NCBI RefSeq assembly: GCF_009911645.1
Contig: NZ_QWKI01000004.1
Span: 1-64,000, forward strand
Origin: Pseudoflavonifractor sp. 60
Lineage (GTDB): Bacteria > Bacillota > Clostridia > Oscillospirales > Oscillospiraceae
Direction: 5' to 3'
Length of the DNA: 64,000 nucleotides
Shown: piece after piece, positions 1,861 to 17,535 of the stretch
Layout: each line of letters opens with the position of its first letter
Position numbering within the stretch: the first letter of the stretch is position 1
The notes under the pieces: model-generated
What the model saw: the letters and a program-made list of their open reading frames with translations, nothing else
What the model was told of the DNA's origin: nothing
Database searches by the model: none
Made by a program: the position numbers and the translations under genes

Positions 1861-2331
1861 TCAGCCGAAGTAGTACAGGAAAAGAGCTTCCCCCTCGCCC
1901 TGGGTCAGGTAGAGCTCCACCGCCCGGGTCTTTGCACCGTCCCGGCCGCTGAGAAAGCAGTTCCAGGCGCTGACCAGCGGCTCACTCGCCAGCTTTTTGG
2001 CAATCTCGTGGCCCATGTAGCCGGGGATCTCCTCCTCCGTCAGCTCCAGCGGCTCCCCGCAGACCTGGTTCAGGGTCTCCTCTAGCTTTCTCTGGTCGGA
2101 TACTGGAAAGCGGAGATAGGCGTAGGGCTCGTCGGTGATCTCTCCCTCGCCGGCGCCCAAATACTCCGACAGGTCAACCCCAAGGTCTTCACGCATATAT
2201 TCCATAAAATCCATGTTTTCCTCCGTTGTCTGAGACTGAGCACTCCCTGCAATCCCACAGGCGGTCATGCTCCCCAGAAGGGCCAGGGCCAGCAGGCAGC
2301 TTATGAGCTTCCGCGGGAGAGTCATCAGCAC
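1861..2331 (-). CDS. Small lipoprotein, candidate immunity protein
   Basis: A 156-residue secreted lipoprotein of unknown family. Residues 1-25 form a signal peptide ending in a lipobox (LGSMTAC), so the mature protein should be anchored on the outer face of the membrane by the cysteine. The rest is acidic with no recognised domain. A GTG at 2331 lies after AGGGGG; an ATG at 2325 is also possible and overlaps the RHS stop codon as TGATG. This tight coupling to a polymorphic-toxin-type effector suggests an immunity protein against its C-terminal domain, but this is inference from position. It is the last gene of the operon. Confidence 0.75.
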   Translation of the reverse strand: MLMTLPRKLISCLLALALLGSMTACGIAGSAQSQTTEENMDFMEYMREDLGVDLSEYLGAGEGEITDEPYAYLRFPVSDQRKLEETLNQVCGEPLELTEEEIPGYMGHEIAKKLASEPLVSAWNCFLSGRDGAKTRAVELYLTQGEGEALFLYYFG

Positions 2332-5300
2332 ATCGTCCCCCTTCTCCGGCGTAGCTCGTCGGTCATCTCGGTAACGTACATCTTCTTATCGTTCACCACG
2401 TGGGTCTGGACCTGCCCGTTTTCATAGGTGTACTCCACCCAGCCCAGGTTGTCACGATCCCCATTCCGCAGGTACCTGTTAAAGGTGTCGTCCGCCCGGG
2501 AATCATAATCCGTGCGCCCGCTGGGGGTCGAGTATACCGTACCATCGCTGGCTAACACCTGTCCGCCGTTGACCCGCTGGGCAAACTGGGCCGCTGGGTT
2601 GGTGTTCTGGTAGTCCATGTGGCCGGCGTTGCAGCCGTAGAGGACCAGCTCCTTCACGTCCTGGCTGTTCAGATTCTGAATATCCTGGGCCCGCATGGAG
2701 CTGCTCCCGTTGCCAAAGCCCAGAGAGCTGGGGCTGGCGTGAGAGTCGATGACCACCGTATCAATGTCCACCGGCTGGCCGTCTACCGTACCCATACCGT
2801 TCCATCCGTTGGTCAGGTCCTGCTTGTTGTTCATGGGAATCATGTGGACCTTGGAGATGTCGTAGCCGTACTTCTGTGCCAGAGCCTTCCGGTCAGCCAT
2901 GGCCTCCCCCTTCCACTCGGGCAGATAGAAGATGTAGCAGTCGGTGCCCTGGGGGTCAATGAAGGTGACCGGATTGTTCCGGCAGTAGGCATACAGGTTC
3001 ACCGATTCGGGAATCTCCGGGAAGATATACCGCTCCTTGTCCTTGGCCAGGAATCGGCCCAGCTGAGGGGAGTAGAATCGGGCTTGGGCGAAGTAGGAGG
3101 CCGACTCGGCGTCGTATTGCAGGCCGGAGAAGCCGAACTCGGGACAGCTGCCGGTGGTGCTCTTGCCGAACTCGTCGTAATCAAAGTGCTCCACCACCTT
3201 GCCTGTGCCGTCCGCCGCAGCGCGGACACTGCCCAGCTCGTCGGTAAAGAACCAGCGCACCTCTCCCCCGCTCAGCTCGGCGGTCAGGGCCTCGTCCCAG
3301 AGCAGATGCCGGGTCTCCTCCTGAGATTCGATGGACAGAACATTGCCGGTGGGCCGGCTGAAGTCGTTGACAAACAGCACCTTCTTGCCGTCCACCACCT
3401 TGCCCAAGCGATGACCCATGCCGTCCCAGAAGTACTCCGCCGCAGTGCCGTCGAAGTCCTCCACCTTGACCAGGCGGTTCTCCGGACTGTACACGAAGGT
3501 CCGGGTCTGACCACCCTGCGTCTCGGTGACCAGGTTGCCCCGCTCGTCGTAGGTGTAGGTAAACACCTGATTGCCGCACACCTTCTCGGTTACCTGGTTG
3601 AGAACATTGTAGCGGAACTGAGTGGCAACGCCGTCCTCTGTCATCTCGGTTCGGTTGCCAAACTGGTCGTACTGGTAGCTCCTGCGCAGGACCCCGTTCT
3701 CGGTGACGGAAACCAGCCGGTTCAGGGCGTCGTAGCTGTACACCGTGACCCGCCGCTCCCCGCCGCGGCGGGTCTCCGCCTTCTCGGAGATGCTGCCCAA
3801 ATCGTCGTACTGGTAGTCGCAGGACCAGCACTCACCCTCCCCGTCGGTGCGCACGACCCGCTTCACCTGGCCTGCGGGGGTGTAGGTGTAGGACTCGGAC
3901 AGGCCGCCTGTCATCTCCTTCTTCGCCAGCCGGCCATCGCTGTCGTAGGAGTAGGTGATCCGGCTGCCCTCCACGCTGACGGCGGCCAGGCGCATGTGGG
4001 CGTCGTACTCGTAGAGGTAGGTCTTGCCGTTGGCGGTGACCTCCTTCTTCACTCCCGCCCCCTCCAGAACATAGTCCACCTCATGGCCGAAGCTGTCCCG
4101 GGTGTGGGTCAGCTGGCCCGCAGCGTCGTACTGGAAGGAGCTGGTCCCCCACTGGTCCTCCATCCCGGTCATCCGCTTCATCTTATCGTAGGTATAGCGG
4201 GCCAGACTGGCGCCGTCCCACTCCACCTCGGCCATCAGGCCGCCCGGATGGTAACGGTAGCGCAGCTCACTCCCCGACAGATCAGTGTGGCTGACCATTC
4301 TGCCATAGGCGTCGTAGGTAAAGGTCTCCGCCGCGCCCACGGCGTTTCGGATCTCGGTCACACTGCCGGCGGCGTTCCGCTTCCAGGTGGTCAGGCGGCA
4401 GTCCACGTTCTCCGGCTTCTGGTACTGCTCCGGGGCGCTGAGGATCTCCTGGGCCCGCTCGTCGGGGAAGGCCCCCTTCAGCACAGCGCTGAGCCGTCCA
4501 GCCTGGTCGTAGCCGTAGTGGGTCACCTGGCCCATCTCATCAATGACCTTCTCCAGGGAGCCGGCAGCGGAGTAGGAATAGCACACCACCCGGCCCTGGT
4601 TGTCCTCTGTGCGGATTACATTGCCGGCAGCATCGTACTCCAGCCCCTTTTCCCGGCCCTCGCTGTCGGCAATCCGGACCCGGCGGCTGAGCCTGTCGTA
4701 GGTGTAGAACTCGGTGTAGCCGCTCTGAAGGGCTCGCTTGACCAGATTGCCCAGGGCATCGTAGGTAAAGTCAATATACTTGCCGTCTGCGTAGGTGACC
4801 CGGCTGAGCCGGCCATCCGGTCCGTAAGTATAGCCGGTCCGCACACCACTCTCATCCGTGCGGCCAGTCATCCGCCCGGCGGGGGAGTACTCATAGGATA
4901 CCTCCCGGCCCAGGGCGTCTCGCTCGGTGACACAGCGCCCAACCACGTCATACACAAAGGTGACGGCACTGCCGTCCGCGTAGGTCCGCCTGGTAACCCG
5001 ACCCAGAGCGTCCCGCTCCACGGTGATCTCGCCGCCGTTCCAGTCGGTAATCCCAATCAGACGGCCTGCGGCGTCGTAGCGGTACAGCTTGCTCTCCTCG
5101 CCCCGCCGCTCCGCAGTGACCCGGCCATAGCTGTCGTACTCGAAGAGACGGGGGGCCATACCGGTCTGTTCCTCTCGCTCCAACAGGTTCATGGCGTTGT
5201 AGGAGCGGGTTATGACGCTGCCGTTGGGCAGAGTGATCTCCACCGGATTGGACATATTGTCGTAGGTAAAGGTGGTGACGCCCCCCAACTTGTTGGTATA

Positions 5301-7133
5301 GGTGGCAATCATATCCATCTCGTTGAAAGTCCACCGCTCAGTCAGGCCGTCAAAGTCCTGAATGGCAGACACCTTGCCTGTGGGGGAATAGGTGATCCAC
5401 CGCTCCTGGCCGGCGGGGTCCCGGATAAGCAGGAGCCGGTCCAGGCCGTCGTACTCAAACTCAGACACATTGCCCTTCTGGTCGGTCAGGCGGACCAGCC
5501 GCCCCGCTCTGTCATACTCGTGGCGCACCGTGTTCCCCAGGCTGTCCGTGATGGCGATGACACGGCCCTCCTCGTCGTAGGCAAAGACCGTCTTCAGCCC
5601 GTCCGGGTCCACCGCCTCCACTACTCTGCCGTCCTGATACACGGTGGTCTGGCGGCTGCCCGCCGCGTCCACAATCTCGGTCATATTGCTGTTCTCATCG
5701 TAGGCCATCCGGGTCTCGCCGCCATCGGGGGCGGATACGAAGGTGAGCAGGCCCCGGGCGTCGTACTGGTATCTGGTCACCTGCCCCAGGGGGTCTGTAA
5801 GGGAGATCACATTGCCGCTCTCGTCAAACTCCCGTTTCCAAATGCTGCCGTTCAGGTCGGTATAGGTAATGCGCTCGTTCTTGTCGTTGTAGGTATAGGA
5901 CTCCTCGCCCACGGCAAAGCGGGTGCAGGTGTGGCGCAGGCGCTGGTCGTGGTAGTACACTGCCTGACTGCCGTTGCGGTCGGTGAAGACCACATGGTCA
6001 TCCCGGTACTCGTAGCGCATTTCGGTCCCGTCGGGGAAGCGCTGGTGGACAACCCGGCCCTCTTCATCGAAGGTGTTCTCCAGGATGCGAACCCCCGCCG
6101 CGTTGATGATGGCGCTCAGGCGGCTGTTCCCGTCGTACTCGTACTGCTCCGAGGTGCCGTCGGCGGAGGAGGCGCTCTGGAGCAGGACGCCGTCGTACTG
6201 GAAGGACACCTCTCGGTCCATGCTGTCGGTCAGCCGGGCCAGCAGGCCTTCCTCGTTGTAGGACAGCTGAATCCACCGTTCCTCCGAGGCCGCCGCCCGC
6301 ACCATGCGGTCCTCCTCATAGGTAAAGGACAGCCCGTGGCCCGCCCGGTCCTGAATCCGGGTGATACGGCCCTGGGTGCTGAAAAAGCTCTTCTTCCCTT
6401 CCCGGGTCGTATAGCAGTAGCCATCCTCCATCTGCTCCAAGGTGTCGTAGCCCCCGAAGATGTGGACAAAGGCGCCGCTCTCGTCCCGGTCAAACCGCTC
6501 CTGCCGTCCATTGCCCCAGCACACCGTCACCTCGTCCCCCTCAATCTTCAGGGCACAGTCCAGGCTGTGGCTCCAGCCCACACCCAGAGGGCCGGACTGG
6601 ACAAACTGGGAGTTGTAGTGCCGGACAAAGCTCAGCTCCATATCTCCCCGCAGGGTCAGCTCCCAGATGTCGTTGACATAGTTGCCGGTACACATATTCA
6701 CCGGCTCGCCGGCGTACTCGCTGCTGTTGTTATTGCTGCCGCCTGGCACGATGCCCAAGGCGCGGAGGATGTCCTGAATTTTCTGGCGCAGATTCTCCAG
6801 GAATTGGGTAATCGTGCTTTTGCCCGACTCTTTGGTGACATTGGAGGGGTCCGCATGGATAAGTCCGGTATTCCGGTTCTCCGCCTGGTTGTACCGGATC
6901 ACCGCCTGTTCCAGACCCCGGCGCAGGGCCGAGGTACTGTTGGACTCCTTGGCAATCTGAGCCGCCGCCTCATTCAGGCGGGCCATAATTCGCTGCTGAC
7001 AGGAAATTTTAAAGCGCAGCGCTCCCTTGATACTGCTGACCTCACTGGACATGGATGTAAGCTTTTTTGCCAGGTCGGCCTCTGCGCTGATCGCCTGATT
7101 GGCCCGCTTGGGGTCAATGCTTATCTTTGCCAT
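2325..7133 (-). CDS. RHS-repeat effector with type VII targeting domain and peptidase-like tail
   Basis: A 1602-residue RHS/YD-repeat toxin. Residues 1-90 are a helical domain ending in YNQAE (81-85), like the substrate motif of the operon's WXG100 proteins. About 170-1390 hold RHS repeats (many Y-D-x-x-G-R-L type units), closing with the conserved RHS core end (RFYSPQLGRFLAKD ... NPVTFIDPQG). The variable tail is residues 1397-1602 (bases 2328-2945). In it VVIDSHAS (His1465) and LVLYGCNAG (Cys1501), each after a hydrophobic strand, resemble the His/Cys dyad of clan CD cysteine peptidases. RHS proteins usually form a shell enclosing such toxins. The start is the ATG at 7133, after GGGAGGAAGA; open sequence upstream to 7262 lacks a good site. 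Cysteine peptidase activity is inferred, not established. Confidence 0.88.
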   Translation of the reverse strand: MAKISIDPKRANQAISAEADLAKKLTSMSSEVSSIKGALRFKISCQQRIMARLNEAAAQIAKESNSTSALRRGLEQAVIRYNQAENRNTGLIHADPSNVTKESGKSTITQFLENLRQKIQDILRALGIVPGGSNNNSSEYAGEPVNMCTGNYVNDIWELTLRGDMELSFVRHYNSQFVQSGPLGVGWSHSLDCALKIEGDEVTVCWGNGRQERFDRDESGAFVHIFGGYDTLEQMEDGYCYTTREGKKSFFSTQGRITRIQDRAGHGLSFTYEEDRMVRAAASEERWIQLSYNEEGLLARLTDSMDREVSFQYDGVLLQSASSADGTSEQYEYDGNSRLSAIINAAGVRILENTFDEEGRVVHQRFPDGTEMRYEYRDDHVVFTDRNGSQAVYYHDQRLRHTCTRFAVGEESYTYNDKNERITYTDLNGSIWKREFDESGNVISLTDPLGQVTRYQYDARGLLTFVSAPDGGETRMAYDENSNMTEIVDAAGSRQTTVYQDGRVVEAVDPDGLKTVFAYDEEGRVIAITDSLGNTVRHEYDRAGRLVRLTDQKGNVSEFEYDGLDRLLLIRDPAGQERWITYSPTGKVSAIQDFDGLTERWTFNEMDMIATYTNKLGGVTTFTYDNMSNPVEITLPNGSVITRSYNAMNLLEREEQTGMAPRLFEYDSYGRVTAERRGEESKLYRYDAAGRLIGITDWNGGEITVERDALGRVTRRTYADGSAVTFVYDVVGRCVTERDALGREVSYEYSPAGRMTGRTDESGVRTGYTYGPDGRLSRVTYADGKYIDFTYDALGNLVKRALQSGYTEFYTYDRLSRRVRIADSEGREKGLEYDAAGNVIRTEDNQGRVVCYSYSAAGSLEKVIDEMGQVTHYGYDQAGRLSAVLKGAFPDERAQEILSAPEQYQKPENVDCRLTTWKRNAAGSVTEIRNAVGAAETFTYDAYGRMVSHTDLSGSELRYRYHPGGLMAEVEWDGASLARYTYDKMKRMTGMEDQWGTSSFQYDAAGQLTHTRDSFGHEVDYVLEGAGVKKEVTANGKTYLYEYDAHMRLAAVSVEGSRITYSYDSDGRLAKKEMTGGLSESYTYTPAGQVKRVVRTDGEGECWSCDYQYDDLGSISEKAETRRGGERRVTVYSYDALNRLVSVTENGVLRRSYQYDQFGNRTEMTEDGVATQFRYNVLNQVTEKVCGNQVFTYTYDERGNLVTETQGGQTRTFVYSPENRLVKVEDFDGTAAEYFWDGMGHRLGKVVDGKKVLFVNDFSRPTGNVLSIESQEETRHLLWDEALTAELSGGEVRWFFTDELGSVRAAADGTGKVVEHFDYDEFGKSTTGSCPEFGFSGLQYDAESASYFAQARFYSPQLGRFLAKDKERYIFPEIPESVNLYAYCRNNPVTFIDPQGTDCYIFYLPEWKGEAMADRKALAQKYGYDISKVHMIPMNNKQDLTNGWNGMGTVDGQPVDIDTVVIDSHASPSSLGFGNGSSSMRAQDIQNLNSQDVKELVLYGCNAGHMDYQNTNPAAQFAQRVNGGQVLASDGTVYSTPSGRTDYDSRADDTFNRYLRNGDRDNLGWVEYTYENGQVQTHVVNDKKMYVTEMTDELRRRRGTMC

Positions 7134-7258: not shown

Positions 7259-7972
7259 TCACGCCCCACTGACCCGAACATAGATCAGAGAATAGTTGTC
7301 TCCCGCGCCGTTTTGCTCAATTTCCCGGGAAAAGTCCTGGATCAGCTGCTCCGGCTGGGGCCAGCCCAGCAGCAGACGCCGGCTCAGCCGGTTGGCGTCC
7401 AGATAACGGTAGACCCCATCGCTGCACAGAAAGAACCGGTCCCCCTTTTGCAGCGTGTCGGTCCTCACGCTGAACTCCGGCTGCTCCCGGATGCCCACCG
7501 CGCCCATCAGCTTGCCCCGGTCGGCCTGTCTCTGTGCTCCGGCGGAATTTCCCACCGTGTCGTCCACCGTGACCTGCTGGAAGGACAACCGCCGGGCCAG
7601 ATAGATCCTGCTGTCGCCGGCGGACAGATACAGGCAGTTTTTTCCCATCAGGAGGAGCAGCACCAGGGTTGAGCCCGCCTGGAGGGGGCCGAAGCGGTCC
7701 ACCACCTCCCGGTTGACCCGGAGCAGGACCCCTTTCAGCTCCCCGATGGCGTCGGGAAAGCTCATACCGGGGTCCTGTAAAAAGCGGTCCTGCCACCACT
7801 GGCTATAGCGCTCCCGCAGCATGGCGCTGACCAGCTCGCCGTGTTCCCTGCCGCCAATGCCGTCGGCCACCAGGAACAGCCCGCCCCGTTCGTCGGTCCG
7901 GAGCAGGATAGCATCCTCGTTATTCCGGCGTACCTGGCCAATGTGAGACGCCCCCGCACACAGCAGCTTCAT
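7259..7972 (-). CDS. PP2C-family serine/threonine phosphatase
   Basis: A 237-residue protein phosphatase of the PP2C/PPM family, which removes phosphate from Ser/Thr with two metal ions. Visible motifs: RRNNEDA (about 15-21), VADGIGG (about 35-41), LCSDGVYRYLD (about 175-185) and GAGDNYSL near the end, supplying the metal-binding aspartates. There is no signal peptide or membrane segment, so it should be cytosolic. Its ATG overlaps the stop of the VWA-FHA gene (ATGA), indicating translational coupling. Next to three FHA proteins that read phosphothreonine, it probably resets phosphorylation of the secretion machinery. The family call is secure; the target is inferred. Confidence 0.93.
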   Translation of the reverse strand: MKLLCAGASHIGQVRRNNEDAILLRTDERGGLFLVADGIGGREHGELVSAMLRERYSQWWQDRFLQDPGMSFPDAIGELKGVLLRVNREVVDRFGPLQAGSTLVLLLLMGKNCLYLSAGDSRIYLARRLSFQQVTVDDTVGNSAGAQRQADRGKLMGAVGIREQPEFSVRTDTLQKGDRFFLCSDGVYRYLDANRLSRRLLLGWPQPEQLIQDFSREIEQNGAGDNYSLIYVRVSGA

Positions 7973-9441
7973 CGAATTTCCACCACAAGCTCAATCCGGC
8001 CCAGCTTCAGCACACTGCCGCTGGAGATCTCCGCCATATCTCCCACCTGCATTCCATCCACATAGGTCCCGTTTCGGGAGCCCAGATCCCGCACCTTAAA
8101 GATACTGCCCGAGATGAACACCTCACAGTGGGTTCCGGACACCGACTTATCGTAGTTCAGCACAATCTGGTTGCCCGGACCCCGGCCAATGGATACCCGC
8201 TCCCGGAGGGGGGCCTCAAAGTGGCGGTTGGCGTCGGCCCGGTCGGTAAGGCACAGGGTCAGCCGCCGGTCATTGCCAATCAAAATCGCGGTGTCGCCGC
8301 CCCCTGGGCTGTCGCCGCTGTCCACCTCGGTCTCGCCGCTGCCGGCGTCGGGGATGGGGTCCCGCACCGTCTCAATGCGCTCCTGGTCCTTTTTGCGGCT
8401 CATCAGGAAGAAAATCCCTCCTCCCACCACCACCGCCGCTAAAACTGCCGCCAGCACAATGGTGAGGATGGGCATTTCCGCTTCCGGCTCTTCCACCGGC
8501 GGAGGCGTGGGAACGGGCGGGTCCTCCTCCGGCGGCTGGGTCACGTCTCCAAAGGGCATGATGGCCTGGATCTCCGCCACCGCCCCATCCCCGAAGGTAA
8601 TTTGAATCCCCTTCACCGTACCGTCCCGCAGGGGCTCCGGAACGGTTACCTCCACACACACCGGAAGCTCACTGCCGCCCATGGTCTGAGAGACGCTGAG
8701 GGTATCGCTAAGCTCCCCTATGGTCCAGCTCAGGGCGTTGGTCTGCCGGGAGAGGGCGTACATGGCCTTCAGGCGCTGGTCGCTGTCCGCCTTGTTGTTC
8801 TTGGAACCCAGGGCGTAGATGGGGATGGGCTGCTCTTTCAGCCGCTGGGTCAGCTCCTCCCGGGTCAGCCCGCCGGGGTTGTTGTCCACACCGTCGGAGA
8901 TTACCACGATCCGCACAAAGGCGCTGTCCTCCCGGGCCTTTTCCTGGTCCAGCACCTCGGCCAGCACATCGGTGAGATAGGTCTCCTGATTCACGTTCTC
9001 GATCTGGTCGATTTTGCCCTTCAAGTCGGCATAGTCCTGGCTCTCCTCCAGCAGGATGTTCAGCTTGTCGCTGAAGGTACACAGATTGAACCGCTCGTTG
9101 GACGCCCGGCCCGCCACCAGGTCGGTGAGCAATTGTTTGGCCGTGACCCGGTCGGCGTCGTTGATGGACAGGGAGTTATCCATCAGCAGCCAGGTGACCA
9201 CGGGAAGGCTGCCGTCCTCCCCGGTCACGCTGACACTGACCCCGGACTGGGTCCCGATCCGGGCCTGGGCAGTCTGGTCCTCCCCACTGTGCTTCACATA
9301 CAGCAACACGGAGTCCTGGGTCACCTGCTGCTCCAGCACCACCGCAGAAGAGGCCGCATAGGCAGCAATTGTAACTGCGGCCAGCAAAAAAGCCGCAGTT
9401 ACAATTCGAATGCTGTTTCTTTTGATGTTATGTCCGCTCAT
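7969..9441 (-). CDS. Membrane protein with VWA and FHA domains
   Basis: A 490-residue membrane protein. An N-terminal signal or anchor segment (about 12-32) is followed by an extracellular von Willebrand A domain with the metal site DNSLS (about 88-92), a Pro/Glu-rich spacer, a second membrane segment (about 325-347, MPILTIVLAAVLAAVVVGGG) and a cytosolic FHA domain (about 395-485) with SIGRG, SGTHCEV and SRNGTYVDG, the conserved phosphothreonine-binding residues. It thus joins an external adhesion-type domain to internal phosphopeptide reading. The start at 9441 follows TTGGAGG and overlaps the upstream gene's end by 14 bp. Its place in the secretion operon suggests a structural or sensing role in the apparatus. 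Confidence 0.9.
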   Translation of the reverse strand: MSGHNIKRNSIRIVTAAFLLAAVTIAAYAASSAVVLEQQVTQDSVLLYVKHSGEDQTAQARIGTQSGVSVSVTGEDGSLPVVTWLLMDNSLSINDADRVTAKQLLTDLVAGRASNERFNLCTFSDKLNILLEESQDYADLKGKIDQIENVNQETYLTDVLAEVLDQEKAREDSAFVRIVVISDGVDNNPGGLTREELTQRLKEQPIPIYALGSKNNKADSDQRLKAMYALSRQTNALSWTIGELSDTLSVSQTMGGSELPVCVEVTVPEPLRDGTVKGIQITFGDGAVAEIQAIMPFGDVTQPPEEDPPVPTPPPVEEPEAEMPILTIVLAAVLAAVVVGGGIFFLMSRKKDQERIETVRDPIPDAGSGETEVDSGDSPGGGDTAILIGNDRRLTLCLTDRADANRHFEAPLRERVSIGRGPGNQIVLNYDKSVSGTHCEVFISGSIFKVRDLGSRNGTYVDGMQVGDMAEISSGSVLKLGRIELVVEIR

Positions 9442-9736
9442 TTGCAATCCTCCAAGCCTCCAGCTCCGCGTCCAGGACCCGCTGGGCAATGGTCCGGATT
9501 GCAGCGGCGATATTGGTGAGATTTCCGGCGGTGATGCGGATGTCGCCCCCCACCTTCTGACCCTTCTTGATGTACTGGGGTGCGCTGTCGCTCTTCCAGG
9601 CGCTGTTTACGGTGTTCAGGATACTCTCCATGTTATCATCGGAGGCATTCCGCAGCCGGCGGGCGATATCGTCTAATTTTTTGGCCTGCTCGATGGCCTT
9701 GTTATAGTTGAAATAGATTTCAGACAAGCTGCTCAT
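9428..9736 (-). CDS. WXG100-like protein, divergent
   Basis: A 102-residue, mostly helical protein with the size and helix-turn-helix shape of ESAT-6/WXG100 proteins. The turn reads NSAWKSDSA, so the motif is WKS (47-49) rather than WXG. Unlike its neighbours it lacks a C-terminal YxxxE motif; its tail ends LEAWRIANERT. It may be the non-secreted partner of a heterodimer. It lies 17 bp after the next WXG100 gene. The family assignment rests on length, helicity and context. Confidence 0.75.
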   Translation of the reverse strand: MSSLSEIYFNYNKAIEQAKKLDDIARRLRNASDDNMESILNTVNSAWKSDSAPQYIKKGQKVGGDIRITAGNLTNIAAAIRTIAQRVLDAELEAWRIANERT

Positions 9737-9752: not shown

Positions 9753-10070
9753 TTATACGATCTGGTTTGTCTGGAGCTTCGCGTTGGTCTCCGTGGCGCT
9801 CTTTTCCGCCTCGCTGTAGATGCCCGCCATCTCCAGCAGGTCCACAGGGTGCTCGCTCAGGCGGCGGATCAAAAACTGGATGTCATTCTCATAAGAGGCA
9901 AAGCTCTCCCGGTCCCGGGTCCCCGCCTCCCCCAGCCAGTAGCCCTTGGTCTTGGCGGCAATGCTCTCGACCCGGTCAAACCGCTTCTGGATATCCTTGA
10001 TGATGGTGCTGAATTCGGTGGACTTCCGGCGCAGCTCCTCCGGGGTAACCCGCAATACAATATCAGCCAT
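9753..10070 (-). CDS. WXG100-family protein
   Basis: A 105-residue helical protein of the ESAT-6/WXG100 family, small substrates or partners of type VII secretion. The turn motif is YWLGEAG (WLG, 45-47). The C-terminal YSEAE (85-89) fits the YxxxD/E secretion signal. Its last residues, TNQIV, closely match TNEIV at the end of the 104-residue protein at 18216, so the two are probably paralogues within the operon. Confidence 0.88.
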   Translation of the reverse strand: MADIVLRVTPEELRRKSTEFSTIIKDIQKRFDRVESIAAKTKGYWLGEAGTRDRESFASYENDIQFLIRRLSEHPVDLLEMAGIYSEAEKSATETNAKLQTNQIV

Positions 10071-10093: not shown

Positions 10094-10399
10094 CTACACC
10101 TTGATAGAGCTGACGATCTGAGACACTGTGTTTTCACACTTGTCATATTCCTCCCGGGCCTGTCCGGTCTTGGTGGTCAGGCTCTGCATCGCCTTTACCA
10201 GGTCCCGCAGACGGCTCAGGTCGTCCCGGACAGCGGCGGAAAAGGCCTGTTTGGCGTAGCCGTCCCACATACTCTCCAGCTGGCCCAGCACACCCTCCAG
10301 CTTGTCTGCGTCGCTCTTGATTCCCAGGAGCTCCGAAGCAATCTCCGACACATCGGACCGCAGCGTACTGGTGTTGACCTCAATGATTTGTCCTGCCAT
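10094..10399 (-). CDS. WXG100-family protein
   Basis: A 101-residue helical hairpin protein with a classic WXG turn (MWDGYAKQAF, WDG at 45-47) and a C-terminal YDKCE (85-89) matching the YxxxD/E type VII secretion motif. The ATG at 10399 follows GGGGGAG. It belongs to a run of three consecutive WXG100-type genes and is the most canonical of them. Confidence 0.92.
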   Translation of the reverse strand: MAGQIIEVNTSTLRSDVSEIASELLGIKSDADKLEGVLGQLESMWDGYAKQAFSAAVRDDLSRLRDLVKAMQSLTTKTGQAREEYDKCENTVSQIVSSIKV

Positions 10400-10414: not shown

Positions 10415-10783
10415 TTATTGATACAAGATTGTTTGGACCGTCTGATTCAGTCCGTACCCGCTGCCAAAGATGATAATCTCTTCCTTCCCCCTGTGGGCAG
10501 GGGGCTGTTCCTCAATGCAAGCGATATTCTTTTGCTCGGTCCGGCGGTACACCTGAACGATCTCCCGCAGGGAACAGGACAGCTTGACGCAGTTGGCGGT
10601 GGTCCGTGTCAGTGCGTCCTCCTGCTTTTGCAGCGCATACCTGCACTCCTCCAGCTGGGAGTGGCGGCGCAGCTGACGGCGCACCTCCTCCACCTCCTCC
10701 CGCGCCTGCCGCAGCATACGGGAGAGCTCCAGCATCTCCAGACCGGCCTGGTCCGCTTTGTCAGGAATGACTTCGATCTTCAT
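10415..10783 (-). CDS. Coiled-coil protein related to the RHS effector N-terminus
   Basis: A 122-residue, strongly helical protein. Residues 2-83 align nearly without gaps to residues 3-85 of the RHS effector: both open with K-I-x-[IV]-x-P-x-x-A-x-Q-A, share spaced Leu/Val positions, and end in LxxxVxxYxxxE (here VYRRTE, Y79-E83). It has no WXG turn. The ATG at 10783 follows AAGGAGAG; an upstream in-frame start has no such site. It may be a secreted partner, a targeting chaperone or a toxin-less copy of the effector's leader domain. The family is not named with confidence. Confidence 0.75.
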   Translation of the reverse strand: MKIEVIPDKADQAGLEMLELSRMLRQAREEVEEVRRQLRRHSQLEECRYALQKQEDALTRTTANCVKLSCSLREIVQVYRRTEQKNIACIEEQPPAHRGKEEIIIFGSGYGLNQTVQTILYQ

Positions 10784-10894
10784 ACGTTCTCTCCTTTTGC
10801 CTGCCCCAAGCATACCACACAGGGCCGCCGCCCGCCGCCTCAGGCGACGAACTGCGCCTTTCTTTGGACAAACGGCAGGGACACCCGGTTTCCC

Positions 10895-11143
10895 CTAGAC
10901 CAGGACCAGCTCGCCTCCGCCGCACACGCCGTAGTCATTCAGGCACTTCTCCTTGTCGCACATGGCCCCGCTGTCCACGGAGCACAGCACCATCTTCTCA
11001 ATCTCGCCCCCAAAGGGCACACACTCCTTTTGAATAATCAGCTCCACCAGCTCCTCGATCAGGTCGCCCACCTTGGCCCTTTCCTCCACCGAGAAGTTAT
11101 ACACCTTTTCCAGTGCCGGCACGTTCACATTAACAACGATCAT
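10895..11143 (-). CDS. YukD/EsaB-like ubiquitin-fold protein
   Basis: An 82-residue protein that begins with a ubiquitin-like strand pattern (MIVVNVNVPALEKVYNF) followed by a helix (VGDLIEELVELII), as in YukD/EsaB, small cytosolic proteins of Firmicute type VII systems. The C-terminal half is less typical and holds three cysteines in a short stretch (MCDKEKCLNDYGVC), an unusual feature. The ATG at 11143 follows AAAGGAA and lies inside the end of the upstream gene (14-bp overlap). The assignment rests on fold pattern and context. Confidence 0.75.
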   Translation of the reverse strand: MIVVNVNVPALEKVYNFSVEERAKVGDLIEELVELIIQKECVPFGGEIEKMVLCSVDSGAMCDKEKCLNDYGVCGGGELVLV

Positions 11144-11777
11144 AGCGTTCCTTTCCAAAGCAGTCTGTCAGCATCTGCGACAGCGCCTCTTGTGTGTAAT
11201 TGACATCCTGGCCATTCCGGCTGATCCCTCGCTGGACCCCGTTTTGATACACCTCATAGAGCTCCATCACCGGACCGCCGTTGCGGCGCTTCTCCAGGCG
11301 CAGGAGGGTCTGCCGGTCCAGGCCGGGCAGCTCCTCCTCCAGGGCGCCCAGCTCTGACAGGTCCTCACAGGTCAGCACCGGCCGCTCCAGCAGCTCGCTG
11401 TCAAACAGCCACTGCTCCATCGAAAGCCGGTCCATCCGCCGCACCCGGTACTGCCGGGTCAGGATGGTATCGGCCAGCTCCACCAGCCAGAGGCCCTCCT
11501 CCCCTACATAGCACACCCCTCGCTCCCCCTCCGGACTGGAGAGGCACACCGCCCAAGGTGCGCTCCGGATATCTGCAAAGAGCACTCCCGTTCCTTCCAG
11601 AGCAAAGCCCTCCCCCTGCCTGCGGAGCATCCCCCGCTGAAACAGGGCCGCAAAGGCCAGGGTCAGCGCTTCCCTCTCCGGCCGCACCCCGTCGCTGAGG
11701 AGGGAGCACTCCCCTCCCCCTGCCAGCTCCAGCAGGAGCATAAACTCCGCCTGCGTGAAATACAGAACTTCGCTCAT
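11130..11777 (-). CDS. Uncharacterised secretion-operon protein
   Basis: A 215-residue protein I do not recognise. It has no signal peptide or membrane segment and is rich in Leu, Glu and Arg. The start MSEVLYFTQAEFMLLLELAG begins a helical segment. The ATG at 11777 overlaps the stop of the LytTR gene (ATGA), after AGGGGG, and its own end overlaps the YukD-like gene, so the three are translationally coupled. Mycobacterial systems encode cytosolic EspG chaperones of similar order of size, but no motif supports equating them. A cytosolic accessory role is inferred from context. Confidence 0.7.
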   Translation of the reverse strand: MSEVLYFTQAEFMLLLELAGGGECSLLSDGVRPEREALTLAFAALFQRGMLRRQGEGFALEGTGVLFADIRSAPWAVCLSSPEGERGVCYVGEEGLWLVELADTILTRQYRVRRMDRLSMEQWLFDSELLERPVLTCEDLSELGALEEELPGLDRQTLLRLEKRRNGGPVMELYEVYQNGVQRGISRNGQDVNYTQEALSQMLTDCFGKERYDRC

Positions 11778-12490
11778 TGCCACGCCCCCTTAAACAGCGG
11801 CTTATAGCTGCGGGAGACGGGCACGCCAATCTGGTCGCTGAGCTCAATGTAGTTCTCGCCAAACCGTATCCGCACGATTTTACTGGTATTGACGATGTAG
11901 CTCCGGTGACAGCGCTGGAAGGAGTCGGGAAGCTGCTTCTCCAGGGCCTCGATGGTGTCGTAGAAAGCGTACTCCTGGTTTTTGATCCGCACAAAGAGCT
12001 TTTTGTCCCGGGCCTCGAAGTAGTAGATGCGGGAGAAGGGGATAAACACCTTCTCCTCCCGGGTGTCCACCACAAAACAGGACTCGGTCTTTCCCTGCTG
12101 GAAGCGCTCGAAGAAGCTGTCCATAAACTCAGCGTTGGCCCCCTCCAGCTGCCCCGCCGTGACGGGCCGCAGCAGCAGAGAGTCGGGGGCAACTCCGGGC
12201 CGCAGATACTCCAGGGGAGAGACGGTGGGGTCCGCAATGAGCATGACCAGGGTGTTTCCATAGCGGCGGCGGAAGAAGCGCAGCTCGTCCACCGGCTGAC
12301 CCTTCCGAAACTCGTAATACAGCAGGTCCACCTGCTTCTCCTCCTCCGCCGCTGCCGTCAGGGCTCCCTCCTTCGCTGTACCCTCCAGCTGGAGCAGCTC
12401 CTCGCTGTTTTTAGCCACCTGATTTTTGCAGTCCCGGGCAATCAGCGTCCGCTCCTGCTCGTCGCGGTCGCAGACAAGAACCCCGATCAT
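11774..12490 (-). CDS. LytTR-family regulator with degenerate receiver domain
   Basis: A 238-residue transcription regulator. Residues about 135-238 are a LytTR DNA-binding domain (VFIPFSRIYYFEARDKKLFV ... FQRCHRSYIVNTSKI). The N-terminal half has the start of a response-regulator receiver (MIGVLVCDRDEQE), but where the phosphate-accepting Asp should end strand 3 the sequence is DLLYYEFRKG, so the acceptor seems to be missing. It may respond to something other than a histidine kinase. The ATG at 12490 follows GAGGGGG. Being inside the operon it probably regulates it, yet no LytTR-type repeats were seen at the operon promoter. Confidence 0.85.
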   Translation of the reverse strand: MIGVLVCDRDEQERTLIARDCKNQVAKNSEELLQLEGTAKEGALTAAAEEEKQVDLLYYEFRKGQPVDELRFFRRRYGNTLVMLIADPTVSPLEYLRPGVAPDSLLLRPVTAGQLEGANAEFMDSFFERFQQGKTESCFVVDTREEKVFIPFSRIYYFEARDKKLFVRIKNQEYAFYDTIEALEKQLPDSFQRCHRSYIVNTSKIVRIRFGENYIELSDQIGVPVSRSYKPLFKGAWQ

Positions 12491-12505: not shown

Positions 12506-15500
12506 TCAACTCATGGGCACCACGATTTTTACCTGGCGCTCCTCTCGATTTTCGCTGGGCACCATACCCACGCCGCACTTCATGGAGCGCTCCTGGTCCT
12601 GATAACCCACATTCTCGAAGGGGAAGAGCTTCTGCTCGCTGAAGCGACCGCCGAAGCGGACGCCGGAGCGATAGCCCCGCATACTGTCGAAGCAGGTGTA
12701 GCCCATCAGGTCGGTCTCCTCACGGTCGCTCACCTCGCCATAGAGGAAGATGTTGTAGCCCATGCCCCGCTCGCAAAGGGTCTCGAACAGGTCTCTGGCG
12801 TTGAAGACAGGGGACTCCGGGTCGTGGAGCTGTCCGATAAGGGTGGACATATTGCCGATAAAAATGTTGATCCGGGAGTTGGCCTGGGCAGCTGTAAACA
12901 TCTCCTCCTGGGACGCTTTCCGGTCCAGGCAGGCCTTCTTGATGCCGGCCCGCTGAACCAGCTCCCCGTGGATCCGGGACAGGAAATTATACACCTCTTG
13001 GGCCTCGGTGCAGCGGGTCAGGGCGTGCTCCTGGGCGATTTGGGCAAAGCGGCTGTCCCCCATCTCCAGAATTACCACCTCGTCCCCCCGGTCCAGGCTG
13101 TTGAGCATAAGGTTTTCCATGAACACCGACTTGCCGCTCTTTTTGGTGCCGGTAATCAGGAACACATAGTTCTCCACCAGATTGAGGGAGTAGATATCCG
13201 CAAACTCGAAATCGTAGCCCGCCGGCATGAGTTCCGGACGCTCCAGCAGCTGCCGGTACTCCGGCAGAGAGGTGAAGTCCTCTCTGGTGGGGTTGTCCGG
13301 GATGGCGGGAATGGCTCTGGCTCTGGGGCCGGTATAGGCGGCGTTCATGGCAGCCACCGCTTTCTTCAGCAGCTCGGTGCGCTCCGGCCCGTCCTCCGCC
13401 CGAGTCGCCAGCGCGGTCTGGAACTCCAAAATACGCTCGCCGCAGTACATCAGGCCCCGGCCCTTCACCTTGGTCTCGGGCAGCACCGGAGGCCGGACCA
13501 CCCGCAGCACATCCGCATAGGCGAAGGAGTCCTGCATCTCCAGGGCGACGCCGGTGCGGAAGGTCTCCGCCAGCCGGCCGGGCAGCTCCTGCATCCCAAT
13601 GCCTCCGGCGGACACCAGCAGGTAGACGCCGTAGCTGTTGCCCTCCTTGGCAATACGCATCATGTTGGCCTCGTAGGTCTCGCCGGTCTTGTCGTGGAAG
13701 CTGCCGTAGTTGTCAATGACGATCAGGATGGCGGGGACGGTCCAGCCGTTGTAGTTCACATAGTCCTCGTAGCTGGTGCCGGCAAACAGGGTCTTCCGCT
13801 CGTCCAGAATGCGGGTCATCATGGTAAAGAACTTGCTGAAGCCGTCGCCGTCCAGGTCGTTCTCGTCCAGATATCCACCCACGTGCTTCAAATCAGAGAA
13901 GACGGACATCATTTTGGCGCTGAAGTCCAGACAGTAGACATTCAGCAGGTCGGGGGTATAGCTGGACGTCAGGGAGTAAATCACCGTCTGGAGCAGGGTC
14001 GACTTGCCGGTGGACACCGTACCGATGACCATATGGTGGCCGCCGTTGGCAAAGTCCAGGGATACGGGCAGCTGCGCCTGGTTGGCCGGGTCGTCCGCCA
14101 TGCCGATAACCGCGCTGAGCTGGAAGCGGCGGGGACGCTCCTTCCAACCCTTTCCGTCAAAGGCGGAGCGGGAGAAGGGCTCCAGAGAGTCCAGATACAG
14201 GCAGGTGGGCAGTACGGGCAGCCACAGCTTTCTGATCTTCTCAATGCCCATCTCCTCCGCCACGCCCCGCAGGTAGTCCACCGTCACCTCCAGCTGGGTC
14301 TTGGACTTCACCTCGGGCAGGCGCTTGCCCTCCCGGGTCGCCTTGCGGATGAGCTGGAGCACCAGCTGGCCGTCGTCCTGAATATCTGCCAGCTCCCGGT
14401 ACAGGGCGCAGAAGTCCCCGATGCGGGTGTTGTTGAACTGGTTGTCCTCAAAATCAGGCTGGAGCTTCCACAGCGCCTGATAGAAGCTGTCCTTGAACTC
14501 CCCGTGCTCCTCAAAGCTGAAACTGGGGTCGGAGACCGACAGGCCGGTCTCCCGCTGGGCGGTCCGGAGGACATCCACCAGCTGGTGGACCCACCGCCGC
14601 TTCAGCTCCTCCTTGCGCTTGACCTTGGCGTGGTTGCCCGCCAGGTCCACCTTGCCGGTGGCGCTGAGCATCTGGGCAATCAGCAGACTGCCGCCTCCCA
14701 GCTCCTCGTCATAGGAGGCGCCCGACCAGCCGCTCTGGAACAGCTCAAAAATCTCATCGTTGCCCACCTGGAGGTAGCACCGGCCCGCCTGAGTCAGATA
14801 GGCCGCCTCGGTACGGTGGAGCATATCCATGGAGTCCTGCCGGTCCTGGACCCGCAGACACAGGCGGAACTTACTGTTGGCCCAGATGTTCTCATCCACC
14901 GTGCCCGAGGGGCGCTGGGTCGACAAAATCAGATGGACCCCCAGGCTTCGTCCCACCTGGGCCACGCTGATGAGTTCCTTCATAAACTCCGGCTCTTCCC
15001 GCTTCAGCTCGGCAAACTCGTCGATGATGATAAATAGATGGGGCACCGGTTCCACAGCGTCGCCGCTCTTGTACAGGGCGGTGTAGCCGTTAATGTTGTT
15101 GACCCCGTACTCGGTAAAAATCCGCTGCCGGCGGCGGTTCTCCGACTGGATGGACACCATGGCCCGCTTGACCTGATTGCCCGACAGGTTGGAGATGGAG
15201 CCGATCATGTGGGGCAGGCCGTCAAAGAGGTTGGCCATACCGCCGCCTTTGTAGTCGATGATAAAGAAGCCGATATCCTCAGGGCTGAAATTCACCGCCA
15301 GGGAGAGGATGTAGGTCTGGAGGGTCTCCGACTTGCCGGAGCCCGTGGTGCCCGCCACCAGGCCGTGGGGGCCGTGGTAGCGCTCGTGGATATCCAGATA
15401 GCAGGGGGCGTTGCCGCTGCGGAAGCCCACTAGCGCCTTCATGGTCTGGATGCTGTTGGCCTTCTTCCACCGCTCGGCAGCGTTCAGCGCCTCAGGGCGG

Positions 15501-17482
15501 TCGATGCCGAACATATCAAAGAAGGTGAGGGTATTGGGAATCTCGCCCTCCTGCTCCGACTCGATGACCTCAATGCGGCCCAGGGTCTTGGAAAGCTTCT
15601 TCAGGCCCTCGTCGGTGACAGTGTCAAACTTGAGCTGGGTCCCGTCTTCCCTGCCGCCCCTCATGCTGAACAGGCCCTGATACTCGCTGTCGCACTCCAC
15701 CACGCACTCGCACTCGTTGGGCAGGTCCTCCGGCCTGTCCGCCAGCAGCACAGTGGACAGGCCCAGATTCTCATTGCGGGCGAAGACATAGCGGGCCACC
15801 GCCTCGCTGTCCAGCAGTCTGGGCTCGGTCACAAAGAGGACGAAGTGGGGCTTCCAGCTGCGCTCCTTCTCCTCCTCGCTGCGGTTGCGCAGCACCTGGG
15901 TCAGGGCGTGGAACACGTCCCCTGCCTCCGACTTGCTGGTGGCGATATAGCGGATCTTCTTGTCACTGGACCACACATGGGGCAGCCACATGGCAAAGTC
16001 CCAGGCCTCCCGGTCGATGTCCTTGCTTCCGTCGTAGATCACGGCAATCTTCACGTCGGTATAGCAGTTGGCGGTGGCCAGCTGAGCCATCATTGCTTTG
16101 GCCACGCTGATGGCCGCTTTCCGGTTCTCGCCGCCGGCAATGCCCACCAGCCGGTTTTGCATCAGGTCCACCGTCACCGGCACCTGCCGCAGGGTCTTGA
16201 AGTTGTCCAAAATCACCTGGGGTTTATCCGCCAGGGAGTCGTTTATCAGGGAAAAACGCTCCCTGGGCACGGAAATAGGCGCCTGAAATGGCACCTCGCC
16301 AATCCCCAGACGCACACTGAGGTAGTCCTCGTGGGAGCTGTTCCGGTTCCACAGCAGCGGGGAGTGCTCATCCAGGGCGCAGCAGTCCCCGGCGCTGAGA
16401 TACCGCTTGTTCAGCACCGCCGCGTTCTCGTTGTGGGCCTTCTCGATCTTGTCCCGCATTCGGATCAGGTACTCGCTGTACCGCTCAAACCGGCGGTTCT
16501 CCTCCTGCTTCTTCATCTTAGCGGCGTAGCGCACATTAATCAGCGCCCAAACCGCACCAATCAACGCAGACGCCAGGGCGGTAATCATGCCCATGTACAT
16601 CATCGCTCCGGACCCTGCCCCGCTGCTGCGGCTGGCAAAGACGGAGACGGCGGTGCCCAGCATCATGGGGATGGACATGGTGAGGGCGGGGCCGATGGTC
16701 ATGGCCAGAGGGGCCTCCCGGCTGTCGGGGGGCTGAGGAGGCCCTTCAATCTCAAAGGGATCTGTGTACAGCTTCTCCAGCTCGCGGGGAGAGCGGCGGA
16801 AGAGGATCTTGTGGCTGCTCTCCTCCTCCCGAACCGGACCCGCCAGCGCCTGGATACGCTCCGCCCCCAGCGGGGAGAGGGAGACGCTCAGGTGGTCACA
16901 TTCATCCACGGCGATCATATTGCCCAGATAAATGATATTCAGCCGCATGACGCGAATGCTGTCGCCGTAGTTCAGCACCGTACTGCCGTACACCCGCTTG
17001 AAATTCAAATAGGTCCCGTTGGTAGACTTGTCGCACAGCTTTGCGGTCCCGTTCTCCAACACAATGGAGCAGTGCTCCCCGGAGACAAAATCATTCTCGT
17101 ATTGGAGCATATTTCCCGGCTTCCGGCCAATGGTGACCTCCCGCAGGCCGGACAGCTCATATTTCTTGTAAACCGAGAAGGGATTGCTCTGCTCAAAGCT
17201 GATGACGGTGATCCGGCTGCCCTGTTGGGTGGCCGCCTCAAAGCGGAAACCGTCGCGGATGGTCACCGCACTGTCCCCCTCCGGTCCCTTGCCCGCCACC
17301 ACTGCGGCGTTTTCCAACTCCAGCCGCCAATGCTCCTCCCGCTTCTCCAGCTTGAGCCGAATATCCTGGTCCAGAGCAAACAGCTCCTTCTGGATCAGGA
17401 CCTCCAGCTCGTCCTGGCCGCGCTCAGGCAGGGTCACCTCCCGGAAGCCCTTCTGGCTGTAAATTGATAGTACCATACCCAT
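12506..17482 (-). CDS. essC: EssC-like type VII secretion ATPase (FHA and FtsK/SpoIIIE domains)
   Basis: The membrane motor of the secretion system, about 1658 residues. The N-terminus has an EssC/YukBA-type start (MVLSIYSQKGFREVTLP) and an FHA domain at about 100-185 (TIGRKPGN, SGEHCSI, STNGTYLN). Two membrane segments lie at about 265-320. Three FtsK/SpoIIIE-type ATPase domains follow with Walker A motifs GTTGSGKSETLQ (about 710), GTVSTGKSTLLQ (about 1155) and GTKKSGKSVFME (about 1447); the first also has a clear Walker B (LFIIIDEFAEL). This triple-ATPase layout is standard for EssC. The start is uncertain between 17494 (GTG), 17482 and 17476; none has a perfect ribosome site. Confidence 0.93.
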   Translation of the reverse strand: MGMVLSIYSQKGFREVTLPERGQDELEVLIQKELFALDQDIRLKLEKREEHWRLELENAAVVAGKGPEGDSAVTIRDGFRFEAATQQGSRITVISFEQSNPFSVYKKYELSGLREVTIGRKPGNMLQYENDFVSGEHCSIVLENGTAKLCDKSTNGTYLNFKRVYGSTVLNYGDSIRVMRLNIIYLGNMIAVDECDHLSVSLSPLGAERIQALAGPVREEESSHKILFRRSPRELEKLYTDPFEIEGPPQPPDSREAPLAMTIGPALTMSIPMMLGTAVSVFASRSSGAGSGAMMYMGMITALASALIGAVWALINVRYAAKMKKQEENRRFERYSEYLIRMRDKIEKAHNENAAVLNKRYLSAGDCCALDEHSPLLWNRNSSHEDYLSVRLGIGEVPFQAPISVPRERFSLINDSLADKPQVILDNFKTLRQVPVTVDLMQNRLVGIAGGENRKAAISVAKAMMAQLATANCYTDVKIAVIYDGSKDIDREAWDFAMWLPHVWSSDKKIRYIATSKSEAGDVFHALTQVLRNRSEEEKERSWKPHFVLFVTEPRLLDSEAVARYVFARNENLGLSTVLLADRPEDLPNECECVVECDSEYQGLFSMRGGREDGTQLKFDTVTDEGLKKLSKTLGRIEVIESEQEGEIPNTLTFFDMFGIDRPEALNAAERWKKANSIQTMKALVGFRSGNAPCYLDIHERYHGPHGLVAGTTGSGKSETLQTYILSLAVNFSPEDIGFFIIDYKGGGMANLFDGLPHMIGSISNLSGNQVKRAMVSIQSENRRRQRIFTEYGVNNINGYTALYKSGDAVEPVPHLFIIIDEFAELKREEPEFMKELISVAQVGRSLGVHLILSTQRPSGTVDENIWANSKFRLCLRVQDRQDSMDMLHRTEAAYLTQAGRCYLQVGNDEIFELFQSGWSGASYDEELGGGSLLIAQMLSATGKVDLAGNHAKVKRKEELKRRWVHQLVDVLRTAQRETGLSVSDPSFSFEEHGEFKDSFYQALWKLQPDFEDNQFNNTRIGDFCALYRELADIQDDGQLVLQLIRKATREGKRLPEVKSKTQLEVTVDYLRGVAEEMGIEKIRKLWLPVLPTCLYLDSLEPFSRSAFDGKGWKERPRRFQLSAVIGMADDPANQAQLPVSLDFANGGHHMVIGTVSTGKSTLLQTVIYSLTSSYTPDLLNVYCLDFSAKMMSVFSDLKHVGGYLDENDLDGDGFSKFFTMMTRILDERKTLFAGTSYEDYVNYNGWTVPAILIVIDNYGSFHDKTGETYEANMMRIAKEGNSYGVYLLVSAGGIGMQELPGRLAETFRTGVALEMQDSFAYADVLRVVRPPVLPETKVKGRGLMYCGERILEFQTALATRAEDGPERTELLKKAVAAMNAAYTGPRARAIPAIPDNPTREDFTSLPEYRQLLERPELMPAGYDFEFADIYSLNLVENYVFLITGTKKSGKSVFMENLMLNSLDRGDEVVILEMGDSRFAQIAQEHALTRCTEAQEVYNFLSRIHGELVQRAGIKKACLDRKASQEEMFTAAQANSRINIFIGNMSTLIGQLHDPESPVFNARDLFETLCERGMGYNIFLYGEVSDREETDLMGYTCFDSMRGYRSGVRFGGRFSEQKLFPFENVGYQDQERSMKCGVGMVPSENREERQVKIVVPMS

Positions 17483-17535
17483 CTTTATGCACACACCCTC
17501 TGTCTTTCTGTATTGTTTTGGCCTGAACCGCGCCC

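Follow-up and report, generated by a model that had tools for sequence, protein, structure and literature searches.

A 64,000-nucleotide stretch of DNA from Pseudoflavonifractor sp. 60 (contig NZ_QWKI01000004.1, positions 1 to 64,000; referred to as the window) harbors a gene for an RHS-repeat protein of 1602 residues (2325..7133, minus strand). Residues 1397-1602 of this protein, here called the tail (2328..2945, minus strand), are predicted to form a clan CD-like cysteine peptidase domain, an assignment based on relatives, predicted fold, a conserved His-Cys dyad and a profile match. We consider it reasonably probable, on the whole, that the tail is a clan CD cysteine endopeptidase and the toxin of an RHS protein secreted by a type VIIb secretion system (T7SSb), and that the small gene that follows, here called the partner gene (1861..2325, minus strand), encodes a guard at the outer face of the membrane. 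Computed results are the fold prediction, the invariance of the dyad, the type VII secretion system (T7SS) locus, the conserved linkage of the two genes and the hydrophobic N-termini of most partners. Caspase-like C-terminal toxins were predicted already in 2012, and the tail is a variant of these. What is probably new is the combination: a clan CD domain without a name, related to DUF4347 and Tce1, sits on an RHS protein encoded in a T7SSb locus and is paired with an immunity family that likewise has no name and probably faces outwards.

The RHS Protein and the Fold of Its Tail

The RHS protein starts with an ATG at 7133 and is composed of a leader, a DUF6531 domain (E = 7.1e-20), RHS repeats (25 stretches; RHS_repeat E = 3.7e-119), an RHS core (Rhs_assc_core E = 2.9e-17), which ends at residue 1396, and the tail. 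It displays the features by which RHS toxins are defined, i.e., DUF6531, repeats, core and a PxxxxDPxG release motif, here with Thr in place of the Leu that follows. The first-pass annotation of this DNA had proposed a peptidase of the caspase/CHAT/C80 type from two motifs in the tail, VVIDSHAS (from residue 1460) and LVLYGCNAG (from residue 1496), and its positions are exact in the translation. These motifs contain His1465 (codon 2739..2741, minus strand), which is predicted to be catalytic, and Cys1501 (codon 2631..2633, minus strand), the predicted nucleophile, as judged from translation and conservation. The same annotation did not recognize the tail as a named RHS toxin. This view holds, because a Pfam search with the window tail gave no family at E ≤ 1, and the NCBIfam search returned two families only, at chance-level scores (E = 0.17 and 0.23). 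PduB and Tcr3, suggested by NCBIfam, were rejected for their chance-level scores, and weak database matches to PB1, Prismane, PNK3P, a phage holin and others were judged to be due to chance. The G+C contents of the tail (0.591) and the partner gene (0.600) are close to that of the RHS body (0.623), i.e., there is no compositional sign of recent import. A frameshift or assembly artefact was rejected in view of the open frame and of homologues in other genomes.

An AlphaFold2 model of the tail, calculated from a 12-sequence alignment of the window and related loci, is an alpha/beta structure with a pLDDT of 92.5 and a pTM of 0.90. Along the chain, strand 3-9, a helix, strand 35-39, another helix and strand 62-69 are followed by His71 (His1465), a short helix, strand 99-105 and Cys107 (Cys1501), where His71 opens a short strand, 71-73, the first of three. 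The hydrophobic strands that had been proposed to precede each motif are found in this predicted model, in which strands 62-69 and 99-105 end two residues ahead of His71 and Cys107. In the general clan CD scheme, loops L3 and L4 carry the His and the Cys of the dyad, respectively, as described in PMC4357240. The predicted model shows the same order, in which the third strand leads to the His and the fourth main strand to the Cys. This topology and the alignment with Tce1 (see below) imply that the two side chains are close in space.

The top match of the model in VIA-align is Tce1 (9qpe_G), a solved DUF4347 member (Z 13.2, 163 residues, root-mean-square deviation 3.3, 20% identity), followed by SAVED-CHAT (Z 10.4), gingipain RgpB (10.1), GPI transamidase (10.1), legumain (9.9) and C80 toxin protease domains (about 9.2). 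One anti-sigma factor, DdvA, is also seen amid the clan CD entries. By their descriptions, 48 of the 50 matches listed by Foldseek are clan CD proteins, and the other two are RadA. Tce1 (PA0256) is described in the available part of PMC13323088 as a putative cysteine protease with a DUF4347 domain and a cargo of the H3 type VI secretion system (T6SS) of Pseudomonas aeruginosa, with His186 and Cys240 as the proposed dyad (PDB 9qpe). The tail profile matches 9qpe_G at E = 0.0017, behind three designed repeat proteins; the designed proteins Cake3-6 match only a short, repeated DGTVY stretch and were judged to be chance hits. His1465 and Cys1501 pair with chain residues 77 and 131 of 9qpe_G, both in the profile alignment and in a single-sequence alignment (E = 1.2). 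Because the chain starts at residue 110, these residues are His186 and Cys240, i.e., the tail shares both the fold and the aligned dyad with Tce1. The Pfam model of DUF4347 (PF14252) gives no match to the window tail at E ≤ 1, and weak matches among the tail relatives were found for 1 of 10 (best E 0.0092) and 1 of 12 (best E 0.0014) sequences. The caspase/CHAT/C80-type reading is borne out by the fold prediction, which yielded a clan CD fold and not an unrelated one, by the clan CD neighbors and by the profile search, in which the dyad falls opposite that of Tce1. On the basis of the model, the tail almost certainly adopts a clan CD fold, and the predicted structure argues against a subtilisin- or papain-type peptidase.

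Conservation and Distribution of the Tail

Across 23 distinct tails (8 duplicates of 31 and matches shorter than 100 residues, such as L018 and L029, set aside), the His is found in all 22 sequences that cover the column and the Cys in all 23, where loci L026-L028 are not independent because they are near-identical. In L029, a partial match outside this count, both dyad residues are visible by eye. Sequence identity between the window tail and its aligned relatives is only 24-49%, and the conservation of the dyad is more than chance would give. The residue after the His is Gly, Ala or Ser, that before the Cys is Gly, Ser or Ala, and further near-invariant positions are a CN-x-G stretch past the Cys and a DG pair past the next strand. 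Taken together, conservation and model make it very likely that the tail is an active peptidase.

Among 400 genomes of the same family, the tail was found only in its own genome; the 399 others contained no relative. Within the class, 22 of the 391 genomes searched have a match at E ≤ 0.1, of which nine (own genome included) are at E ≤ 1.2e-8; the weaker matches are mostly chance frames, while those of L011 and L017 are real as judged by profile. Among 398 genomes of the phylum, the alignment profile matched eight at E ≤ 0.01. A scan of genome contigs using a four-sequence alignment yielded ten tail loci with flanks, with record titles that name Clostridia or groups within, three of them also deer hosts and one Acetivibrio mesophilus (L037). 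Plasmids, phages, two scans of viral contigs and a first genome-contig scan yielded no tail relative. Since the plasmid, phage, viral-contig and family scans came up empty, there is no sign of a phage or plasmid link, and the tail is uncommon within its own family. The carriers are RHS proteins, a Big_2 protein (L040) and the L026 protein, in which no Pfam family was found over the 757 residues seen. Past the aligned part of the tail, these proteins extend by 0-19 residues, or by 82 in L026-L028 (the partial matches L018 and L029 left aside). We read the tail as a mobile module that rides on different carriers.

The Partner Gene

The ATG of the partner gene overlaps the stop codon of the RHS gene by one base (TGATG). 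The encoded protein has 154 residues from this ATG, a lipoprotein-like N-terminus and no Pfam or NCBIfam match at E ≤ 1, including to Imm36 or Imm57. Its predicted model (pLDDT 77.5) has no convincing structural neighbor; the structure search gave no match above Z 6.7, and TipC is not among the matches listed. A distant copy of the tail was rejected as the origin of the partner (0.6% probability in a profile comparison). An alignment of 12 partner genes, 11 next to a tail and one from L041 located further off, revealed a common C-terminal pattern, and no Pfam model is matched by more than two of these 12 relatives. In leave-one-out searches with profiles lacking the hydrophobic N-terminus, 10 of the 12 were recovered at E < 0.001, and the window partner at E = 2e-4 (5e-4 as the full frame), all scaled to 3423 open reading frames.

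Using the full profile and after removal by hand of repeated loci, 18 distinct partner copies were counted, of which 12 are found behind a tail within 900 bases (one tail, in L006, is truncated). There is some circularity in this linkage count, since the profile had been built from 12 of the 18 copies, 11 of which had been picked as following a tail. Two further copies (in L016 and the third in L041) follow remnants of a tail, and the other four (two in L041, one in L118 and a partial one in L036) lack a tail within 900 bases. The partner was found in none of 68 control RHS loci (0.5-3.6 kb each). In the 391 class genomes, 12 matched the partner, seven at E ≤ 2e-15 and five more weakly (E 7.5e-6 to 2.8e-4). 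Among the seven, five have the partner beside a tail (G510, G557, G000, G634 and, with a truncated tail, G424), one beside a remnant (G692) and one without (G478); when the profile-building genomes G510, G557, G000 and G634 are left out, the partner resides beside a tail or remnant in two of three. As judged from sequence, the copies without a tail fit orphan immunity genes, and the partner is probably an immunity protein, which would make the tail antibacterial.

Some loci are organized in particular ways. The L040 segment 334-8544 contains two tail-partner pairs, where the first tail is on the Big_2-domain protein and the second nearly alone. L041 (5293-9910) carries three partner-family genes among decayed RHS and tail fragments, an arrangement that resembles an orphan-immunity array. 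In L118 (499-1899), a locus without a tail, the partner domain ends a 466-residue frame behind S-layer homology repeats and is perhaps a wall-anchored orphan guard.

The Type VIIb Locus and Release of the Tail

The RHS gene is the last of a series of genes that all lie on the minus strand. In the direction of the tail, these encode two WXG100 proteins (18600..18896 and 18216..18530, both over the Pfam and NCBIfam cut-offs), an FHA-domain protein with a hydrophobic N-terminus (17536..18093), the T7SSb ATPase EssC (12506..17494; TIGR03928 1041 bits, cut-off 778) and a LytTR regulator (11774..12490). Then follow two proteins without a convincing match in an NCBIfam scan (11130..11783 and 10415..10813, the latter with one family at E = 0.0046, far below cut-off) and three proteins of the WXG100 type, i.e., two WXG100 proteins over the Pfam and under the NCBIfam cut-off (10094..10399 and 9753..10070) and a WXG100-like protein below both (9428..9736). 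A VWA-FHA protein (7969..9489, start codon uncertain) and a PP2C-type phosphatase (7259..7972) precede the RHS gene; these two, the FHA-domain protein and the LytTR regulator were identified by family search. The RHS gene is thus encoded together with EssC and WXG100 genes, as is characteristic of T7SSb effectors. Elsewhere, EssC adjoins L036, and three WXG100-type genes (two over cut-off) are found beside L032.

The RHS protein begins with a helical leader (residues 1 to about 140; 6714..7133, minus strand), which is probably its T7SS targeting part. The LXG domain of Pfam has no match at E ≤ 1 in the full RHS protein, which has the helical leader instead. This leader recurs in two proteins of the own genome, L135 (E = 3.2e-17) and L138 (E = 4.6e-10), as well as in L129 (E = 2.9e-23), which comes from a different genome of the same genus; L130, also from another genome of this genus, holds the L135 protein in identical form. 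In each of the leader-bearing proteins (L135, L138 and L129), the C-terminal part is different. The leader-sharing proteins of the own genome (L135:1372-2736 and L138:958-1974, on contigs C256 and C226) match no Pfam model over cut-off. Their C-terminal parts resemble a papain/C39-like fold (GGHW motif) and a metallopeptidase (HExxH motif), respectively, so that these two and the RHS protein may together make up a set of three different T7SS protease toxins.

From this gene context, export of the RHS protein by the T7SS appears likely. Because the T7SS locus is found here and other carriers are found elsewhere, the window protein is best seen as T7SSb cargo with a tail module that is also used by other carriers.

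The putative release point of the tail (2943..2972, minus strand) is an RHS autoprotease motif with the residues P1388-xxxx-D1393-P-x-G1396, where Leu is replaced by Thr1397, and with D1365 upstream. RHS shells are known to cut off their own tails at motifs of the PxxxxDPxGL type (PMC8765631, in the part available), and by analogy release of the tail at this site is probable.

The PP2C and FHA proteins of the window and the FHA-type and Ser/Thr kinase-like proteins (below cut-offs) that are located beside the tail-partner pair in L032 (9238-14271) suggest phospho-signaling around such T7SS loci. Two further genes of the window reside on the other side of the partner gene. A serine recombinase (1159-1800, plus strand), XisF/Mpi-like below cut-offs, converges on the partner gene and could move or invert the cassette. 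A 126-residue protein (391-771, minus strand) is CsrA-like over its first 47 residues (E = 3.6e-5, below cut-off).

Site of Action

We compared the genes that follow 93 open reading frames with an RHS core, which remained of 115 after removal of six that ran off the contig, four whose tails have at most 20 residues and 12 duplicates. As judged by a hydropathy rule alone, the next gene encodes a hydrophobic N-terminus, i.e., a signal anchor, for 14 of 17 clan CD tails and for 25 of 65 other RHS tails (Fisher p = 0.002; 11 others are without a next gene). The next genes of more distant tails, i.e., those of L005, L007, L008 and L009 and the main L041 tail, all encode a hydrophobic N-terminus (5 of 5). 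Because 25 of the 65 controls also have them, membrane-type neighbors are enriched with clan CD tails rather than unique to them.

A stronger argument for an outer site than this enrichment is the variety of exported forms in which the partner domain occurs. It is found as a lipoprotein-like protein (window and L032), with a single helix (L036-L038 and L040), behind a Cu-amine-oxidase-N domain (L039) and behind S-layer homology repeats in L118 (E = 2.1e-20); the exception is the L035 partner, which has no hydrophobic N-terminus. Because the partner family occurs in exported forms, a target outside the membrane is suggested, and judged from these sequences it is fairly probable that the tail acts there.

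Discussion

From these results we infer peptidase activity, release of the tail, its site of action, immunity and a bacterial target, which can be joined into a mechanism. EssC would export the RHS protein, aided by the leader and the WXG100 partners, and the RHS shell would cut the tail free near residue 1397. The freed tail would then arrive at the zone between wall and membrane of a neighboring Gram-positive cell, where Cys1501, activated by His1465, would cleave at least one membrane or surface protein. The protein encoded by 1861-2325, anchored on the outer face of the membrane, would block the peptidase and thereby shield the producer and its kin.

Parts of this scheme have been described in other systems. 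In the Streptococcus intermedius pair TelC/TipC, a T7SS toxin acts at the outer face of the membrane and an outward-facing, anchored immunity protein is established (PMC6193138, in the part available); the system is similar to that proposed here in these respects and differs in that TelC is a lipid II phosphatase. Outward-facing, membrane-anchored immunity has also been proposed for LrhA/LrhI of a Listeria T7SS locus (PMC10327511, from the accessible text), which shares with the window a T7SSb locus, an RHS protein with DUF6531 and a next gene that encodes one N-terminal membrane helix and a predicted extracellular domain. According to the accessible part of PMC3482391, caspase-like domains of polymorphic toxins are mostly releasing peptidases, while the C-terminal ones are probably also toxins; carriers of these Tox-Caspase domains include T7SS and RHS proteins, and the immunity proteins are Imm36 and Imm57. 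The tail is similar to Tox-Caspase in the caspase-like fold with His and Cys, the C-terminal position, the RHS carrier and the T7SS, and like these domains it is the C-terminal-most domain of a polymorphic toxin. In contrast to the Imm36 and Imm57 listed there, the window partner has no family match and carries an export anchor. Tce1 has the same fold over 163 residues with its dyad opposite His1465 and Cys1501, but it is a free cargo of the T6SS and lacks an obvious immunity gene, whereas the tail ends a T7SS-linked RHS protein with a conserved partner. Among the papers listed by literature searches (at most 12-20 per list, subscription journals mostly outside their reach), none describes the tail-partner pair as judged by title and abstract opening.

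A peptidase toxin of clan CD could alternatively act in the cytoplasm of the target, in the manner of the papain-like Cpe1, an interbacterial cysteine protease toxin that acts on GyrB and ParE (PMC12136450, in the part available), in which case the anchor of the partner would be incidental. The L035 partner, which has no hydrophobic N-terminus, and the membrane-type neighbors of 25 of 65 other RHS tails are consistent with such a site. However, the hydrophobic N-termini in 14 of 17 next genes and the lipoprotein-like, single-helix, Cu-amine-oxidase-N and S-layer-repeat forms of the partner, all except L035 exported as judged by their N-termini, make a cytoplasmic target unlikely. The fold by itself, which shows no function, would also be compatible with a catalytically dead binding module, a very remote prospect given that the dyad is fully conserved (22 of 22 and 23 of 23) with the CN-x-G and DG motifs around it.

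C80 domains, e.g., those of MARTX and TcdA/TcdB, are internal self-processing domains. They share the clan CD fold (Z about 9) and the His-Cys dyad with the tail, and differ in that the tail is C-terminal and C80 domains are internal (see also the available part of PMC3482391). The presence of C80 domains among the structural neighbors, and the prevailing reading of caspase-like domains in polymorphic toxins as releasing peptidases (same source), would fit a domain that matures or releases its own RHS carrier and is not the weapon. That role is improbable: the domain ends the protein, which argues for a toxin rather than a releasing peptidase, as the 0-19 residues past full-match tails (82 in L026-L028) leave no room for a further toxin domain, the RHS core carries an autoprotease motif of its own, and self-processing would require neither different carriers nor a dedicated partner family. 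There is equally little probability that the domain targets proteins of an animal host or of protists, as proposed for Tce1 and Tce2, with the small gene encoding a chaperone or surface tether. Deer are named as hosts in three of ten record titles, but partner copies without a tail or beside remnants (L041, L016 and L118) fit orphan immunity and not a chaperone, and relatives of the tail are also found outside animals, in Acetivibrio mesophilus (L037), which we take to be from a non-animal habitat. Further support for an animal or protist target comes from Tce1, the closest solved relative, which is possibly anti-eukaryotic and lacks an obvious immunity gene according to PMC13323088.

Several observations weigh against a T7SSb-delivered toxin with an outer-face guard. 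The window tail alone has no Pfam match, and Foldseek gave a best E of 1.2e-3, i.e., none at E ≤ 0.001, with TM-scores of 0.27-0.43 for the matches listed (by model length). The lipobox of the partner appears imperfect. Two of the 12 partners were not recovered in the leave-one-out searches (L035, E = 0.13; second L040 copy, E = 0.065), the partner profile does not recognize the next genes of L005, L007, L008 and L009, nor the gene after the main L041 tail, and the linkage count is partly circular, as noted above. The signal anchors are defined by the hydropathy rule only, which 3 of 17 loci (L017, L029 and L035) fail, and membrane-type neighbors are also common among the controls; with a looser cut the contrast weakens to 14 of 17 versus 32 of 65 (p = 0.016), entries that come from the same genome are not independent of each other, and the controls include a few artefacts (e.g., the masked L025 row). 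A crude motif scan of eight long-flank tail loci revealed flanking T7SS genes in just two (L032 and L036) and none in L033, L034 and L037-L040, and the L040 carrier starts with a Sec-type signal; for both reasons, the T7SS is not the sole route for the carriers of the tail. In addition, the accessible text of PMC13323088 describes Tce1 as having no marked effect on growth of E. coli and no obvious immunity gene, contrary to an earlier report that it lowers E. coli survival two-log (PMC8262886, in the part available).

A wider conclusion, which we offer tentatively and with some doubt, is that these tails represent a distinct antibacterial class of clan CD proteases that would cut proteins at the outer face of Gram-positive membranes. 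Their delivery would be by T7SSb (for other carriers probably by Sec), and their outward-facing inhibitors would also be kept as orphans, even hung on the S-layer. The DUF4347/Tce effectors of Gram-negative T6SSs and the RHS tails of Clostridia would then be united in one protease toxin superfamily. In the available text of a 2023 review of T7SSb competition (PMC10765036), the word "protease" occurs once, in the title of a reference, and "peptidase" does not occur. If both domains were named, toxin-immunity pairs could be annotated in several clostridial families, and the Tce1-type domains would gain a system with a probable inhibitor next door, which makes substrate and specificity testable. 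If the proposal is true, Gram-positive bacteria would be killing each other in an unusual way, with a protease toxin that is held in check on the outer side of the membrane.

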